Assembly (NCBI RefSeq): GCF_003390325.1
Contig: NZ_QUOK01000004.1
Location: 310,001-374,000 of the forward strand
Length of the DNA stretch: 64,000 nucleotides
Origin: Rhodohalobacter sp. SW132
GTDB taxonomy: Bacteria > Bacteroidota > Rhodothermia > Balneolales > Balneolaceae
Direction of reading: 5' to 3'
Under the pieces are notes generated by a model. That model did not search any database. It saw nothing but the letters and a program-made list of their open reading frames with translations, and was not told the DNA's origin. Below, piece by piece: positions 17,748 to 23,963 of this stretch. Position 1 is the stretch's first letter. Every line of letters begins with the position of its first letter. The translations under genes were made by a program, and so were the position numbers.

Positions 17748-19016
17748 ATGCCCAATCTACCGCCCGGCTCTGACCCAAGTATTTCAGTTCTGCTCAACTG
17801 TTTGCACAGGGAGCCACATCGTTTTCCCACAAAACAGCTTACTGAAATGAACCGGAAGCAGTGGAAGCGCCTGGGCGATTGTGCAACTGAACACCGGGTG
17901 GTACCTCTTTTGTATCAAAGGCTTATGGCTGCCGGCGATGGGATCCAAACCGAAGCCTCACGTTCTTCACTTGAGTATATGAGTGCATACAGCCGGCAGG
18001 TATCTAAAAACAATCTTCTTTTCTACGGGGAACTTCGCAAACTGCTATCAGCGCTTGATGAAAAAAACATCCCCGTTATTCTCTTGAAGGGCATCTATCT
18101 TGCGGAGCACGTCTATGAAAATCGCGGGCTGCGGGAGATGAATGACATGGATCTTCTTTTCAAAAAAGAACACCTTGAAATAGTTTACCAATTACTGACT
18201 GAGATGGGGTATCAACCAATATCTCACGTATATATGAATGATATTAATCAAATCATTCAAATCAACAAACATTTACCCAGGCTCATAAAAAAAGATGTTG
18301 CCGGTATTGAAATTCACTGGAATATTACGAAACCAGGCAGATCATATCATATTGAACCTGATGGTATCATTCAAAGAGCTTCACCCATAAATAAAGCCGG
18401 CGTTAATGCTCTCTCATTAACAGCAGAGGATTTGCTTCTTCACCTTTGTCTGCATACCTCGTACCAACACAATTTTGCGTTCGGTTTGCGCCCATTTTGT
18501 GATTTGAAGACGGTGATTGACCGGTTTGATAAGCTGGACTGGGATGAAGTTTGTTCCCGATCGGCCGAATATGGATGGAGACGGGGCGTTCTTCTCTCCC
18601 TGGTGATTGCAAAAGATTTTTTGGGTGCGGATGTACCCGAAGACATAATAAAACGGCTTCATGCGGATGATTCTATTCCCGCACTTGTGGAGACAGCCCG
18701 GAGGCAAATCCTGACAAAAAAAGAAGATTCGAAAGCAGCCGGAAATGCTGTTATAACTTTTGCATCTGCTGAGGGCTTGACCGGAAAAACATCTGCGGTA
18801 ATCAAGCGCCTTTTTATATCCAAAGATCAGATGATTGCAAAGTATCCAATTCGCCCCGGCTCCCCGATGATCTATCTTTGGTACCTGGTCCGGTTTGGCC
18901 AGATGATATGGTTCCATACCTCTAAAATACTACGCGTTTCACGCGGTGATCCGGAGTACACCGGCATCATCGAACGAAAAGAAGAATTACACTCCTGGTT
19001 GAATAAAGAAAATTAG
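17748..19016 (+). CDS. Nucleotidyltransferase family protein (NTP_transf_5-like) of a RiPP-type cluster
   Basis: Cytoplasmic 422-residue protein of the Pol-beta-like nucleotidyltransferase clan. The signature is present: ILLKG at 111-115, then an Arg, then the acidic pair in NDMDLLF (Asp133 and Asp135), and a third acidic position in GIEIHW (187-191). LHLCLHTSYQ downstream is the usual helical follow-up. Members of this family often sit next to PqqD, HPr-kinase-like and lasso-B2 genes, as here, and are thought to modify a peptide or sugar with a nucleotide, but the substrate is not known. It is the first gene of a four-gene plus-strand run (17748-21170). The gap to the next gene is 175 bases, longer than the others, so a second promoter is possible. 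Confidence 0.85.
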   Translation: MPNLPPGSDPSISVLLNCLHREPHRFPTKQLTEMNRKQWKRLGDCATEHRVVPLLYQRLMAAGDGIQTEASRSSLEYMSAYSRQVSKNNLLFYGELRKLLSALDEKNIPVILLKGIYLAEHVYENRGLREMNDMDLLFKKEHLEIVYQLLTEMGYQPISHVYMNDINQIIQINKHLPRLIKKDVAGIEIHWNITKPGRSYHIEPDGIIQRASPINKAGVNALSLTAEDLLLHLCLHTSYQHNFAFGLRPFCDLKTVIDRFDKLDWDEVCSRSAEYGWRRGVLLSLVIAKDFLGADVPEDIIKRLHADDSIPALVETARRQILTKKEDSKAAGNAVITFASAEGLTGKTSAVIKRLFISKDQMIAKYPIRPGSPMIYLWYLVRFGQMIWFHTSKILRVSRGDPEYTGIIERKEELHSWLNKEN

Positions 19017-19191
19017 ATGATTCTGTGGAAATGTGGTTATAAAACGGGTTTCTGCATTTATCTTGTCTGTCCATACCTACATTTTATAACTCAAATTATA
19101 ACTCAACCATGTTAAGAGTTTTCAGTATTCATTTATCATTGATCGATGTTGAGTTCAGTTTCCGGCAATAGTTTCGTATTTTTTGTACCGC

Positions 19192-20214
19192 ATGAAAAAG
19201 CTTTCTACACACATTCCTGCCGATTTTCCATCCGTCGATGAACTCTATTCTATTTATGGAAAGAGGGTCAGAAGCAACTACCCAATGCCACTTCCGCAGG
19301 CCGGGGACGGACTGGTGGATCTTACGATCCGGTATGACGGAATTGTACCGAAAACTGAGGACCGCTCCCCAAACACCATGTACCGCACCTGGCAAAAAGA
19401 AGGAAAGAGTTGGCACCTGCGAATTTATAATCAATATGGGCACACTAATGAGTTCTCTTTTAGCGGGGATGGAACTGATATTCGTGCGACCCAAAGCTGG
19501 CCGGAGTGGCGTGATACGCTTTTCAACCTGATGAACGTGGTGATGGCCTCTGCGGCATCAATCCAGGGAGATAACATATTGCACGCATCATCGCTCGTCC
19601 GCCACGATAAAGCGTTGCTGATAACCGGAATCAGTGGTGCCGGGAAATCATCTCTTTCGGCCGCATTTGCCGCCAACGGCTTTTCGGTGCATTCTGATGA
19701 TATCGCCCTCATTCAAAATGATAATGATGGTAACCCGGTTGTGATGCCGGGCTATCCGCGGATCAAAGTGAAACCGGGCATAACGAAGTATGTAGAGAAT
19801 TTGAATGGTGCGAACCTGATTCCGCTTACTGTTGATTCTGATGCGCTAAGGGCCGTTGAAAAACTGAATGGCCTCAACCAGGGAATTGAGGACGCTGAAA
19901 AATGGCTCACGGCCGGTGAACTGCCCGGGGGATTTTATGACAGTCCGGCCCCGGTTCATGCAATACTAATTCTTGATGAGCGCAGAGAAGATATCAGCGT
20001 TCCGGTTGTTACGGAAATGAAGAATGCGCAGGCGGTGATGGGTCTTGTCGAGCATATCTATGGCCGGGAGTGGCTCAATCTGCCAGGACAAAAATCGCTG
20101 GAATTTTGTATACAGCTTGCCAGCCGGTTGCCGGTCTACAGGGTAAACTTGCCGGACAACCTGCACCTTCTGCCGGCATCGGCTGATCTGCTGTACCGGG
20201 AAATCATGGGCTAA
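19192..20214 (+). CDS. HPr kinase/phosphorylase-like protein
   Basis: Cytoplasmic 340-residue kinase related to the C-terminal domain of HPr kinase. The P-loop is GISGAGKSS at 146-154, preceded by the conserved LHASSLV, and followed by HSDDIALI at 167-174, which holds the catalytic Asp pair. The N-terminal ~120 residues replace the HprK regulatory domain. Homologues in lasso peptide clusters phosphorylate the C-terminus of the precursor peptide (known for Paenibacillus-type clusters), so peptide phosphorylation is a reasonable guess; carbohydrate regulation via HPr is less likely. The ATG at 19192 is preferred to a TTG nine bases upstream. Ten bases separate its stop from the start of the B2-like protease gene. 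Confidence 0.87.
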   Translation: MKKLSTHIPADFPSVDELYSIYGKRVRSNYPMPLPQAGDGLVDLTIRYDGIVPKTEDRSPNTMYRTWQKEGKSWHLRIYNQYGHTNEFSFSGDGTDIRATQSWPEWRDTLFNLMNVVMASAASIQGDNILHASSLVRHDKALLITGISGAGKSSLSAAFAANGFSVHSDDIALIQNDNDGNPVVMPGYPRIKVKPGITKYVENLNGANLIPLTVDSDALRAVEKLNGLNQGIEDAEKWLTAGELPGGFYDSPAPVHAILILDERREDISVPVVTEMKNAQAVMGLVEHIYGREWLNLPGQKSLEFCIQLASRLPVYRVNLPDNLHLLPASADLLYREIMG

Positions 20215-20224
20215 TTCTGATCTT

Positions 20225-20782
20225 ATGCAAAATAAAAGTAAATATACCGCTTCTAAACCCGCAACGACGGGATTAGTAACAAGGTTTTTCAGTAAACCGG
20301 CCCGTTATCGCAGGCGACTGATGGAGGCGCTCTTTTGGATTGCTGTCATGCGATTTGTGATAAGATTCCTGCCATTCCGGGTGCTGAAGAGACTGGTCGG
20401 GGGTTCCGAAGGTCGCGTTCATGACCGTCAGGATAGATCGCACCTGGAATCTGGATCAATAATGGAAATGGAAACAACTATAGAAGCGTCAGACGGCGCA
20501 GTCGAGACTGTTCAGGATATCGTTAGGGCTGTCAGATCGGTGAGCCGGAGAACTCCATGGGAGAGTAAGTGCCTGGTTCAATCATCTGCTGCAAAAATCA
20601 TGATGAATAAGGCGGGTATTCCAAGTGAATTATGCCTCGGAGTACTGAAGCCGGGTTCTGCACAAAGATCAGAATCCGGCAAAAATGAGATGCGTCCCCA
20701 CGCCTGGCTCATTGCCGAAAACCACGTGGTGCTTGGAGGAGAGAACCTTGAACAATACGTGATGGTATCACGGTTTAGATGA
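20225..20782 (+). CDS. Lasso peptide biosynthesis B2-like protease (transglutaminase-like)
   Basis: 185-residue cysteine protease of the B2 kind, which removes the leader from lasso precursors. The catalytic Cys is Cys116 in PWESKCLVQS, and the catalytic His is His159 in RPHAWLI; the third residue, usually Asp/Glu, is probably in the AENHVVLGG turn. The N-terminal part has a hydrophobic helix (EALFWIAVMRFVIRFLPF) that is also common in B2 proteins and may hold it at the membrane. It follows the kinase gene closely and is followed 106 bases later by the PqqD-like B1 gene. A spacer between the helix and the protease domain (about 60-95) is polar and probably flexible. The missing partner is the asparagine-synthetase-like cyclase, which is not in the window. 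Confidence 0.87.
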   Translation: MQNKSKYTASKPATTGLVTRFFSKPARYRRRLMEALFWIAVMRFVIRFLPFRVLKRLVGGSEGRVHDRQDRSHLESGSIMEMETTIEASDGAVETVQDIVRAVRSVSRRTPWESKCLVQSSAAKIMMNKAGIPSELCLGVLKPGSAQRSESGKNEMRPHAWLIAENHVVLGGENLEQYVMVSRFR

Positions 20783-20888
20783 CGTTTAGATGAAAGCGAA
20801 TTTAAAATTTCAGTCTTTTTAGAAGCTATCAACAAACGTATTGTTAACAGATAAAAGAAACTAAACCAACCAAAAGATTACCTCATAT

Positions 20889-21170
20889 ATGATTACTCCA
20901 AATAGTAAAATTAAACGGTCGTCCCGTCCCCTCTCCTCGCAGGTTGCCGATGAACTGGTGATGTTTGATACAGAATCAGGCAAATATTATGGATTAAACA
21001 ACATAGCCACTGAAGTCTGGAATAAGATTGAAGAACCTGTTACGGTTGAGGAACTGTGCAGAGCACTGACGGATGAGTTTGATGTGACACCTCAGCAATG
21101 CCGCGAGGATATGCTGGAGTTCCTGCCGCAACTGGTGGAGAAAGGTTTGATTGAGGTTGAAAAAGTCTGA
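20889..21170 (+). CDS. PqqD family protein (RiPP recognition element, lasso B1-like)
   Basis: 93-residue stand-alone RRE of the PqqD family. The pattern is typical: RPLSSQVADELVMFDTESGKYYGLNNIATEVWNKIEEPVTVEELCRALTDEFDV, a winged helix-turn-helix in which the first strand binds the leader peptide, then a helix QCREDMLEFLPQLVEKGLIE. It should bind the leader of a precursor peptide and deliver it to the B2-like protease and the kinase. It ends the plus-strand cluster. No precursor gene is seen on the plus strand; the best candidate lies convergently at 21580-21744. Confidence 0.9.
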   Translation: MITPNSKIKRSSRPLSSQVADELVMFDTESGKYYGLNNIATEVWNKIEEPVTVEELCRALTDEFDVTPQQCREDMLEFLPQLVEKGLIEVEKV

Positions 21171-21201: not shown

Positions 21202-21542
21202 AGACATGGTATTTCTCAGGACCTGTAACCCAGCGTCAGCTGGTACTTTGTAGATGTTCAAATGCTGAGAATGGTGTTATTGTACAGAAATGCCATGTCT
21301 GTTAGGTGAGAGGAATAGACATGGTATTTCTCAAGATTCAGAGTTTGGCATGGATTGGGAAGTTGTTGAAGTTCCAAAACTGGGAATGGAGATTTTGAAT
21401 TGAATTACAATATATTGGGACAGGGAGTCAAGTGTGAAAGAGACATCGCATTTCTGAGGACTGGAAGTTTTGCACGGTCAATAGTCTTTAAGGACGCAAG
21501 CAGGCAAAATAATTGTGCTAATACACGAGAAATGCCATGCCT
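21202..21542. repeat. Five copies of a 16-bp motif in both orientations
   Basis: Consensus AGACATGGCATTTCTC. Copies: 21202-21217 (direct), 21285-21300 (inverted), 21317-21332 (direct, identical to the first), 21441-21456 (direct, diverged) and 21527-21542 (inverted). Direct/inverted pairs could fold into long hairpins. The rest of this ~400-base stretch between the PqqD-like gene and the small gene at 21580 holds no other gene that I can support. Confidence 0.7.
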
Positions 21543-21579
21543 GACGTTCGTGCTAGTCTGCTTGGTAATAACGCATCGC

Positions 21580-21744
21580 TTAAGAGACTTGTTGAGGGGA
21601 ATACGGCAGTCCCGGTTGTTGTTCGGTATTGCGAAAGTCTTCCTCCATAACTTTCGGTTTAGTCCAGGGCCGTTTGGACAGGTTGGGCTTCTGGGCTTTT
21701 TGCTGCGGGTCGTGCTTGTGCTGGTCGCTGGATGCTCTGTTCAT
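21580..21744 (-). CDS. Small protein, candidate RiPP precursor peptide
   Basis: 54-residue frame: a polar N-terminal half rich in Gln, His and Lys (MNRASSDQHKHDPQQKAQK), then KRPWTKPKVMEEDFRNTEQQ and a short tail ending in SPQQVS. The segment WTKPKV resembles the YxxPxL element that B1/PqqD proteins recognise in lasso-type leaders, and a Thr follows 8 residues later, where leaders often have a conserved Thr. The tail after Thr does not start with Gly, so a classical lasso ring is not obvious. It is antisense to, and lies 410 bases beyond, the PqqD-like gene, and 45 bases downstream of the stop of the secreted protein gene 21790-23682 on the same strand. No ribosome-binding site is evident. 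The reading is a motif-based hypothesis. Confidence 0.45.
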   Translation of the reverse strand: MNRASSDQHKHDPQQKAQKPNLSKRPWTKPKVMEEDFRNTEQQPGLPYSPQQVS

Positions 21745-21789: not shown

Positions 21790-23682
21790 TTATTTAATCA
21801 ATGTCATGCGGCGGGTCATCGAACCCTGACCGGTATCCAGATGATAGATGTAGGTGCCGCTGGAGAGGTTCGAGGCGTCAAAGGTTACTTCGTGCGTTCC
21901 AGCGTTCATCTGCCCATTGACCAGCGTTGCCACTTTCCGTCCGGTGATATCGAAGACGTTTAGGGTTACGTGGCTCTGCTCCGGCAGCGCGTAGCTGATG
22001 ACCGTGCTCGGGTTAAACGGGTTCGGGTAGTTTTGCCGCAGGCTCAGCTCCGTTGGTAGTTCTGCCGGGCCGTCGATGCTTACCGAGGTTTTTGCGGAGA
22101 TGACAAACCGCGGGCTGTCTCCGGAGCTTTTGGCCATTTTAGGTCCTTCGGCAAGAAGCGCCATCGGATCGGTAACGGCTTTTTGCCGATGCCCCTCAAG
22201 CGTAAATTCATACTCAGTTTGCCCGTTTAGCTCAATGGCTACGTTTTCCCTGCGATCTTCCAGGAACAGCGGCTGGCCGAAAGAACCGTTGATCTCGGTG
22301 GTACGAAGTGTATAGGTACCGGGCAGGGTGGCGTCTACCTCCAGGGGCAGTTCAAAGTCGCTGCCGGGCCGGGGCAGCATGCTGATGTCGAACAGCCCGC
22401 CGGTTTTCTTCCCAGCAAGCAGAGTGTGATCTGCAGAAAGCGGCTGAAGCTGGTGAGCGTCGCCCTTAGTCTGCTCCAAAGAGCCGCCTTCGCTAAAGAC
22501 CATCCAGGCGGAGTTGCTCATGCCTTGCCCGCTGAGCTCCAGGCGAATGACGTCACGTTCGGGCTGTTTACCAAGAAAACCGCCTTTAATTATGGCGTCC
22601 TCCGTAAATTCAACAGAACCATTACTCCCAATAGTCTGGACAAAAAAGCCCTGGAACGGGGCGAGGATACCGAGTTCAATATCACCTGCTGTACCATTCC
22701 ATGTTTTCCAGCTTCCTGAACCGACTAGTCCATCTTCGGTATCACCACCGGCATTACCACTTTCATCGTTTACATCCCAAACGTAAACAACGTCCGTCAG
22801 GTTGGTTTTCGCTAACTGATCAAAGAATATGGGGGAAGCAAACGGGTTGCCGAGCAGCGTCCAGCCTCCATTATTACTGTTTGCATCTTGCGTAAATCCT
22901 GCGCTGTTTTCCTCACCGCTCACGGACAACGTCTTGGGAAAAGAGCCTTCCACATCGAACTCATCATCCTGGAATACATAGACCAGGATCCCGGTACCCG
23001 CGCTGATCGTGCCGGACAGATCGGTTACCCCGATCCAGTTGTCGCGGGAGTTTCCCGTAGCGGTGTTATCCCATGTAAATACGTTGGGATCGCCATTACT
23101 GGTATTGCCGCCAACGGCACCCTGGGTATAGATGGGAGAGAGGAAGTCTGAAAACGAAGTCTCTACAGGGGTGGAGAGCAGGCGGTAGCCTTCGAGGCCG
23201 GTGATTTGAACTGTCGATTTTTTCACTTTTCCTGAGAGAATAACAGTAACATTTTCTGTCCCGGAAGAACTCAATGTAATATTACCACTATATGTATCTG
23301 CACCCAGACCGGCAGCTAATCTCACATAAATCGTTTCAGAAACTGAACCTCCTGATTGGGAAAGGGTAATGTTACTATTTGTGAACCCGCTGCCGGGTGT
23401 TGTACTGATTTCGAAATTAGAAGGAGGTGCTACTGTGATATCTCCCCCAAGATCTGTGCCTTCAACAGTAAAGCTTTGCTCATTGGATGGACCGGAACCT
23501 TCAAGATAATCCAAGCCAGATAAGCTTGATGGATTTTCATCAATTATTGGATCACTAACAAGGTTCTCGGGCGATATGCTATGCCCGTGCCCCACCTGCA
23601 TCCCAAACAATAAAATCACCAAAGTAGCTGCGGCCGCGGTTGTAATCAATTTGCGAAGAAAAGGCTGTATTGTCTGTTTCAT
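21790..23682 (-). CDS. Secreted protein with C-terminal sorting (T9SS type A/FlgD-like) domain
   Basis: Secreted 630-residue protein. The signal peptide is [28 protein letters not shown]. Residues ~60-150 form a beta-sandwich ([35 protein letters not shown]) seen in many surface proteins of this phylum. The middle part ([27 protein letters not shown]) is typical of large secreted proteins that carry sorting domains. The last ~85 residues are the sorting module: [19 protein letters not shown], then [19 protein letters not shown] and [22 protein letters not shown], recognised by type IX-like secretion in this group. The start at 23682 is the ATG; a TTG four codons before it is rejected. Function of the passenger is unknown. 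It borders the RiPP-type cluster and the polysaccharide locus. Confidence 0.88.
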
Positions 23683-23963
23683 GTGAGTACCCAAGTGTGT
23701 ATTGTAGTTTGCCAGTTTAAATCAAATTTAGCAGGGAAAAGAATCCCCATTACTATGCTGCTGAATTTGTCAGTGTTAAATCTTTTTCTGGAATATTTTT
23801 AAAAGTATTTGGCCGAAGTCCGATTTATTGGAAACGGAGTGATACAGGCCTCCCGAAGCCAGTGTTATACTGGTCCTGATATTCGCGATCAGATCTCCTA
23901 TCGTTAGTATTGGCTGGAGATGACAGCCAGTGGCAGATTTTTCTGTCAAATCTTCCATCATAA

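Follow-up and report, generated by a model that had tools for sequence, protein, structure and literature searches.

The stretch of DNA analysed here, called the window below, comprises 64,000 nucleotides of the forward strand of contig NZ_QUOK01000004.1 (positions 310,001 to 374,000) from Rhodohalobacter sp. SW132, a member of the Balneolaceae. It contains genes for a nucleotidyltransferase, an HprK-like kinase, a B2 leader peptidase and a B1 leader-binding protein, followed by a small gene for a precursor peptide. We propose that this locus makes a short, linear, phosphorylated RiPP (ribosomally synthesized and post-translationally modified peptide). Its chemistry and function are deduced from the genes, and as a whole this reading is in our judgement the best explanation and a likely one. 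The product is best described as a linear peptide phosphorylated at the C-terminus, perhaps also glycosylated, and its site of action is probably the cell surface.

The precursor gene (positions 21580-21744, minus strand), which does not appear in an earlier note on this DNA, is the open reading frame (ORF) just beyond the B1 gene. The 54-residue peptide, MNRASSDQHKHDPQQKAQKPNLSKRPWTKPKVMEEDFRNTEQQPGLPYSPQQVS, consists of a leader containing WTKPKVMEEDFRNTE and a proline-rich core of 13 residues, QQPGLPYSPQQVS. The leader carries the element WxxPxV, which fits the motif [Y/W]xxPx[L/V/I] bound by lasso-type B1 proteins (PMC13381572). A threonine, Thr(-2), occupies the penultimate leader position, which is the one used for cleavage by B2. 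The core contains no acidic residue, so that Asp and Glu are absent from the ring positions 7-9, and its last residue is Ser.

Precursors were searched for in 245 genomes of the class, without regard to neighbouring genes, and homologues were found in about 15 genomes. The ORF of the window is not a chance frame, because profiles built without it recover it. In a leave-one-out profile of the other members it ranks first of 1795 six-frame ORFs (E 4.6e-9); with a profile of the order-level clade alone the E-value is 7.9e-14, and with a distant genus alone it is 0.004. The order-level relative G126 has two homologues (35-49% identical), and G053, G125, G124 and G118 have one each. A conserved small frame beside these genes in relatives, for which the earlier note had recommended looking, is indeed present: the precursors stand beside the same enzymes in G126 (both copies), G053 and G125. 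The G053 precursor carries the variant Ile(-2), within RSIE. Outside the class, the phylum-wide search gave only weak matches of leader length, in three genomes.

Thirty-five precursors from Balneolales were aligned, giving the consensus W-x-x-P-x-[IV]...T-x-Q...P-P...S. The C-terminal residue is Ser in 34 of them and Thr in the remaining one. This conservation favours the C-terminus as the phosphorylation site, and the last Ser is most likely the target of the kinase. The cores of the window and of G126 have no Asp or Glu at positions 7-9. The idea that the acidic acceptor has been lost throughout the family was rejected.

Two further groups of short frames were observed in these searches. 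A 25-residue ORF consisting of a leader only, MLLLVDKSNKSSKKEWQKPVIISLD, lies between the kinase and B1 genes of G060 (L280:5313-5390) and ends where a core would start; similar weak matches occur in the related genus near G065 C70:5972, G057 C108:26942 and G053 C252:11811. Such an ORF is perhaps a decoy or a regulator of B1. In G169, a genome of the Rhodothermia, a cluster with a cyclase and a kinase has three precursors of the W type (L090:2044-2828). Two of these closely resemble each other and end in GSLSDCR, so the cores differ strongly from those of the proline-rich family.

All four enzyme genes are intact and lie on the plus strand where the earlier note had placed them. That note had described them as a single set with its key residues in place, and the comparison with relatives bears this out for the GKS and DD of the kinase and for the Cys and His of B2. 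The nucleotidyltransferase (positions 17748-19016, 422 residues) matches PF14907 (NTP_transf_5) with 199 bits and has homologues in five related loci with identities from 69 down to 40%. By analogy, we propose that it decorates the phosphate of the peptide. The HprK-like kinase (positions 19183-20214, 343 residues, the start probably being the ATG at 19192) scores 42.5 bits with TIGR04352, below the cut-off of 200. A profile of nine members aligns with HPr kinases of known structure (3tqf, E 2e-9) across the Walker A and Asp-pair region, and the Walker A GKS and the DD pair are invariant among the relatives. Its proposed role, judged from sequence, is the phosphorylation of a Ser residue of the precursor. 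Structure predictions for the kinase alone and for the module of the type IX secretion system (T9SS) protein with two sequences had a mean predicted local distance difference test score of 35 and 37, respectively, and were not used.

The B1 leader-binding protein and B2 cysteine peptidase that a lasso cluster requires are both present. The lasso-type B2 peptidase (positions 20225-20782, 185 residues) scores 74.6 bits with NF033537 (cut-off 33), and its Cys116 and His159 are invariant across 12 homologues. The PqqD-like B1 protein, or RiPP recognition element (RRE; positions 20889-21170, 93 residues), scores 78.7 bits with PF05402. It passes the cut-off of TIGR04353 (36.4 against 35) and just misses that of NF033536 (76 bits against 80). 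B1 proteins present the leader to B2, and the dissociation constant of PadeB1 and its leader is about 5 nM (PMC5067487). Where B1 and the precursor gene converge (positions 21202-21543), the DNA separating them holds three copies of AGACATGGTATTTCTCAGGA and two copies of its near-complement AGAAATGCCATGTCTG; these repeats could form hairpins of a terminator or a small repeat element.

No asparagine-synthetase-like cyclase is present within the window, as the earlier note had stated. The search with the Asn_synthase family across the genome, which is 98% complete, gave two matches, neither of them near the locus and neither a convincing lasso cyclase. The first, of 442 residues, lacks the N-terminal domain that such proteins usually have. 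The second, of 577 residues, belongs to a polysaccharide locus; its SGGLDAR loop is degenerate, and it scores 29-38 bits with the lasso cyclase model. In G126 (98% complete, about 20 contigs), where the nucleotidyltransferase, kinase, B2 and B1 are all present, the cyclase search gave zero matches. The genome G078 of the same genus has the nucleotidyltransferase only, on a contig of 3.7 kb; its best match to the cyclase model retains Cys2 (MCGINGYLG), lies within a polysaccharide locus and neither supports nor refutes the present reading. Since there is no cyclase and the core has no ring acceptor, the product should remain linear.

These results also bear on the view that a lasso cluster has decayed or been split here: its cyclase would have been lost recently or would act in trans, and the genes left would either be relics or continue to produce a lasso. 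This view would account for the kinship of all four proteins with those of lasso clusters, for the cyclase-bearing lasso clusters in the same family (G064, G052 and G068) and for the cyclases adjoining the wider nucleotidyltransferase clade in loci of Elusimicrobia and Chloroflexota. The 577-residue protein lacks Cys2, as lasso cyclases do, but its loop, location and score speak against such a role. In addition, the genes are intact and conserved together with precursors over several genera, with no cyclase nearby and in G126 none at all, and the window core has no acceptor. The earlier note had held that a lasso cyclase and a clear precursor beside the same genes in close relatives would indicate a mere loss or separation from the window. 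Where the nucleotidyltransferase and kinase are 40-45% identical, no cyclase stands beside the set; the clusters that do have one are lasso clusters farther removed (kinase identity about 31-33%), with a different core. We therefore regard a decayed or split lasso cluster as improbable.

A contrast is provided by the lasso clusters of the family. In G064 a cyclase (301 bits) accompanies the kinase, B2 and B1, and G052 has the same set with an interrupted cyclase frame. Their precursor, EWVTPKIVEEDYSETR|MGEGEGTDGEGYS, has the leader in the same register as in the window, an Asp in the range of ring acceptors and a C-terminal Ser. It seems that one leader and one enzyme kit can serve for both lasso and linear products, which would differ mainly in the core and in whether a cyclase is present. 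Farther afield, the nucleotidyltransferase clade nearest to that of the window occurs in L136, L137 and L138, from metagenome-assembled genomes of Elusimicrobia and Chloroflexota, together with a lasso-type cyclase, B1 and B2. The kinase is additionally found in L136 and L138, which may be regarded as candidate phosphorylated lasso clusters. To our knowledge, few such clusters are known in Elusimicrobia and Chloroflexota.

The preferred reading of a linear phosphopeptide gains a further element from the gene upstream of the precursor. Directly upstream, on the same strand and separated by 45 bp, lies a gene for an exported protein sorted by the T9SS (positions 21790-23694, minus strand; PF18962 and a TIGR04183 tail). 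The two genes are probably co-transcribed, to judge from their arrangement. Proteins homologous to this one precede the precursors in G126, G053, G118 and others. The precursor search gave 43 matches at E about 1e-4 or better, six of which lie at contig edges. A gene with a T9SS tail is located 0-383 bp upstream in the same orientation in 32 of the 37 evaluable cases, and among the five exceptions are two lasso precursors, from G064 and from G052, and a further precursor that adjoins a kinase gene. With about 33 T9SS tails in a genome of 4.7 Mb, the random expectation for a position within 400 bp downstream on the right strand is approximately 1/700. The pairs recur dozens of times in relatives from several genera, at up to about ten scattered sites in a genome. 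In several genomes many pairs are distant from the enzyme genes; G065 has ten precursor matches.

The association holds in one direction: a precursor implies a T9SS gene, while the reverse is not true. The idea that all T9SS proteins sharing the C-terminal module are followed by a precursor was rejected: only a minority are, and many of their genes stand without one. No precursor-type ORF was found downstream of the nine tail-only T9SS genes checked, or behind two full-module T9SS genes of G003, a genome without B2 or kinase. As a separate observation, a different short ORF, MKKLHIALLVLVIIVAAVFILPELASAQPPPPPSKPEQTPIDGGLFLLAAAGGGYAIKKLRDKKA, encoding a small membrane peptide with a proline-rich stretch, lies behind a T9SS gene in G066 (L202, C1:1883200-1884180).

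The same pairing raises the question whether the short ORF is simply a partner of the T9SS gene or a T9SS cargo signal, unrelated to the four enzymes, whose target would then be unknown as in the HPr-rel-A cassettes. The ORF is paired with T9SS genes even far from the enzymes, the two stand on opposite strands, and B1 exceeds the cut-off of TIGR04353, the 'HPr-rel-A system' family. The kinase, however, stays under the TIGR04352 cut-off, and the leader of the ORF, which is the same as in the true lasso precursors of the family, contains the WxxP motif to which lasso-type B1 proteins bind (PMC13381572). The ORF also stands beside the enzymes in three genomes and co-occurs with the kinase across genomes, which makes an unrelated ORF quite improbable in our view.

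This co-occurrence was counted in 28 genomes of one related genus. Precursor and kinase are both present in 10 genomes, kinase only in 1, precursor only in 1 and neither in 16 (Fisher p 9e-6); for the precursor and B2 the counts are 9/2/2/15 (p 4e-4).

Since the precursor gene directly follows a gene for a T9SS-exported protein, the envelope is the probable site of action of the peptide, with that protein as its partner or target, a role deduced from the gene pairing. An envelope role had been hinted at in the earlier note from the bordering polysaccharide genes; the T9SS link supports it better than that border does. The border itself is formed by a long polysaccharide locus on the minus strand, at 24-47 kb of the window, which adjoins the RiPP set and includes a sugar transferase, glycosyltransferases, a flippase and a WecB-like epimerase, annotated by eye only. 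A literature search found no paper linking lasso peptides or RiPP precursor peptides to type IX secretion, and the link is apparently undescribed so far.

Alternatively, the peptide could be an ordinary secreted bacteriocin or signal, whose gene merely profits from a promoter or site of expression that the position behind T9SS genes happens to offer. RiPPs of this type are mostly secreted, the N-terminal parts of the paired T9SS proteins vary, and an ATP-binding cassette (ABC) transporter adjoins B1 in G126 and G123. The locus in the window has no such transporter; the best homologue in this genome (49%) lies in a polysaccharide locus. The pairing in 32 of 37 cases, over several genera and in up to about ten copies per genome, exceeds what a chance expression site would give, and we consider the bacteriocin or signal possible but rather unlikely. 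A broader picture can be offered as possible, though somewhat less likely than not: in the Balneolales a single RiPP enzyme set per genome may serve many tiny precursor genes, mostly paired with genes for T9SS surface proteins. The peptides, phosphorylated or phosphoglycosylated at the C-terminal Ser, may associate with these proteins or decorate them covalently.

The following sequence of reactions may be suggested for the linear phosphopeptide. The precursor would be bound by B1 through its WxxPxV leader, and the HprK-like kinase would phosphorylate a Ser, most likely the conserved C-terminal one. B2, guided by B1, would cut after Thr(-2)-Glu(-1) in NTE and free the 13-residue proline-rich core, and the nucleotidyltransferase could then place a sugar or a nucleotide on the phosphate. 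The product would remain linear, and the paired T9SS protein would be its partner or target at the envelope. The earlier note had proposed a linear peptide modified by phosphorylation and nucleotidylation. The first part is supported by the conserved precursor, the lack of an acidic residue at positions 7-9, the relatives with precursors and no cyclase, and an analogue in Bacillota that has been demonstrated biochemically (PMC13381572). Nucleotidylation is less well supported: among such nucleotidyltransferases a product has been reported only for that of pseudomycoidin, which attaches hexoses to the phosphate (PMC8498205).

Several observations weigh against this scheme. The kinases BsfK (PMC10368454) and LppK (PMC13381572) phosphorylate Ser3 and not the C-terminus, and the kinase of the window is remote from characterised lasso kinases and from curated families. 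The Asp of the B2 catalytic triad is not evident in the alignment of the 12 homologues. About half of the other precursor family members have Asp or Glu at core positions 7-9. The p values given above are optimistic because the genomes are related. Two genomes, G057 and G060, have precursors and the kinase with no B2 match, so B2 may be replaceable or was missed in the assembly. Finally, several genomes have precursors far from the enzymes, and there it is the motif and the co-occurrence that connect substrate with enzyme.

It is useful to compare the locus with systems that have been characterised. The phosphorylated lasso peptides paeninodin and pseudomycoidin (PMC8498205) share with it B1, B2, an HprK-like kinase with a C-terminal Ser, a nucleotidyltransferase, the WxxP element and Thr(-2). 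In lasso precursors the C-terminal Ser is the site phosphorylated by HprK homologues of the paeninodin type (PMC8498205), in agreement with the statement of the earlier note that such kinases phosphorylate precursor peptides. What sets the window apart from these systems is the lack of a cyclase, of an acidic acceptor for a ring in the core and of a transporter in the locus. The Bsf lasso cluster of Bradymonas sediminis (PMC10368454) also has a kinase, B1 and B2, and its Ile(-2) is shared with the G053 precursor, but it makes a Gly1-Asp8 ring and its kinase acts on Ser3. The HPr-rel-A cassette (TIGR04352/TIGR04353) resembles the window in its HprK-related kinase and in a PqqD-family chaperone above the TIGR04353 cut-off; it differs in that the kinase of the window is far below the TIGR04352 cut-off and that B2 and a WxxP precursor are present.

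The closest counterpart is found in the linear polyphosphorylated peptides (LPPs; Popov et al., May 2026), described for the lpp cluster of Paenibacillus alginolyticus, which encodes an RRE, an HprK-like kinase, a nucleoside triphosphate (NTP) transferase and a SipW-like leader peptidase (PMC13381572). These clusters have no cyclase, give polyphosphorylated linear intermediates, lie in capsular polysaccharide loci and are reported as restricted to Bacillota; their biological role is unknown (PMC13381572). Both systems have a stand-alone RRE (B1), an HprK-like kinase and an NTP transferase without a cyclase, a short precursor with a [Y/W]xxP leader, polysaccharide loci nearby and, by deduction, a linear product. 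The LPPs, however, are characterised by a SipW-like signal peptidase, the leader YxxPxVLxHQxIxFETxxS, Ser3 and Bacillota, whereas the window has a B2 cysteine peptidase, a WxxP leader that does not follow the LPP motif, a conserved C-terminal Ser, a host from the Balneolales and the T9SS pairing. No SipW-like (SpI, signal peptidase I) leader peptidase was found among the scanned genes of the locus, the rest of the genome not having been searched for one. Of an MsbA-like exporter, a part of LPP clusters, the locus of the window has no copy; in G126 and G123 an ABC transporter adjoins B1, and its best homologue in the genome of the window is the one in a polysaccharide locus. If the present reading is true, linear phosphorylated RiPPs extend beyond Bacillota with another leader protease, and direct tests could draw on some 35 candidate substrates together with kinases and leader-binding proteins. 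Function is hinted at by the steady pairing of the precursor genes with those of secreted surface proteins, a clue for which the Bacillota cases have no counterpart. Because its proposed working is like that of the LPPs, while their protease and leader motif and the cyclase of lasso clusters are all missing from the locus, we place the locus as a variant of the linear phosphorylated RiPPs, set apart by its protease and its leader.

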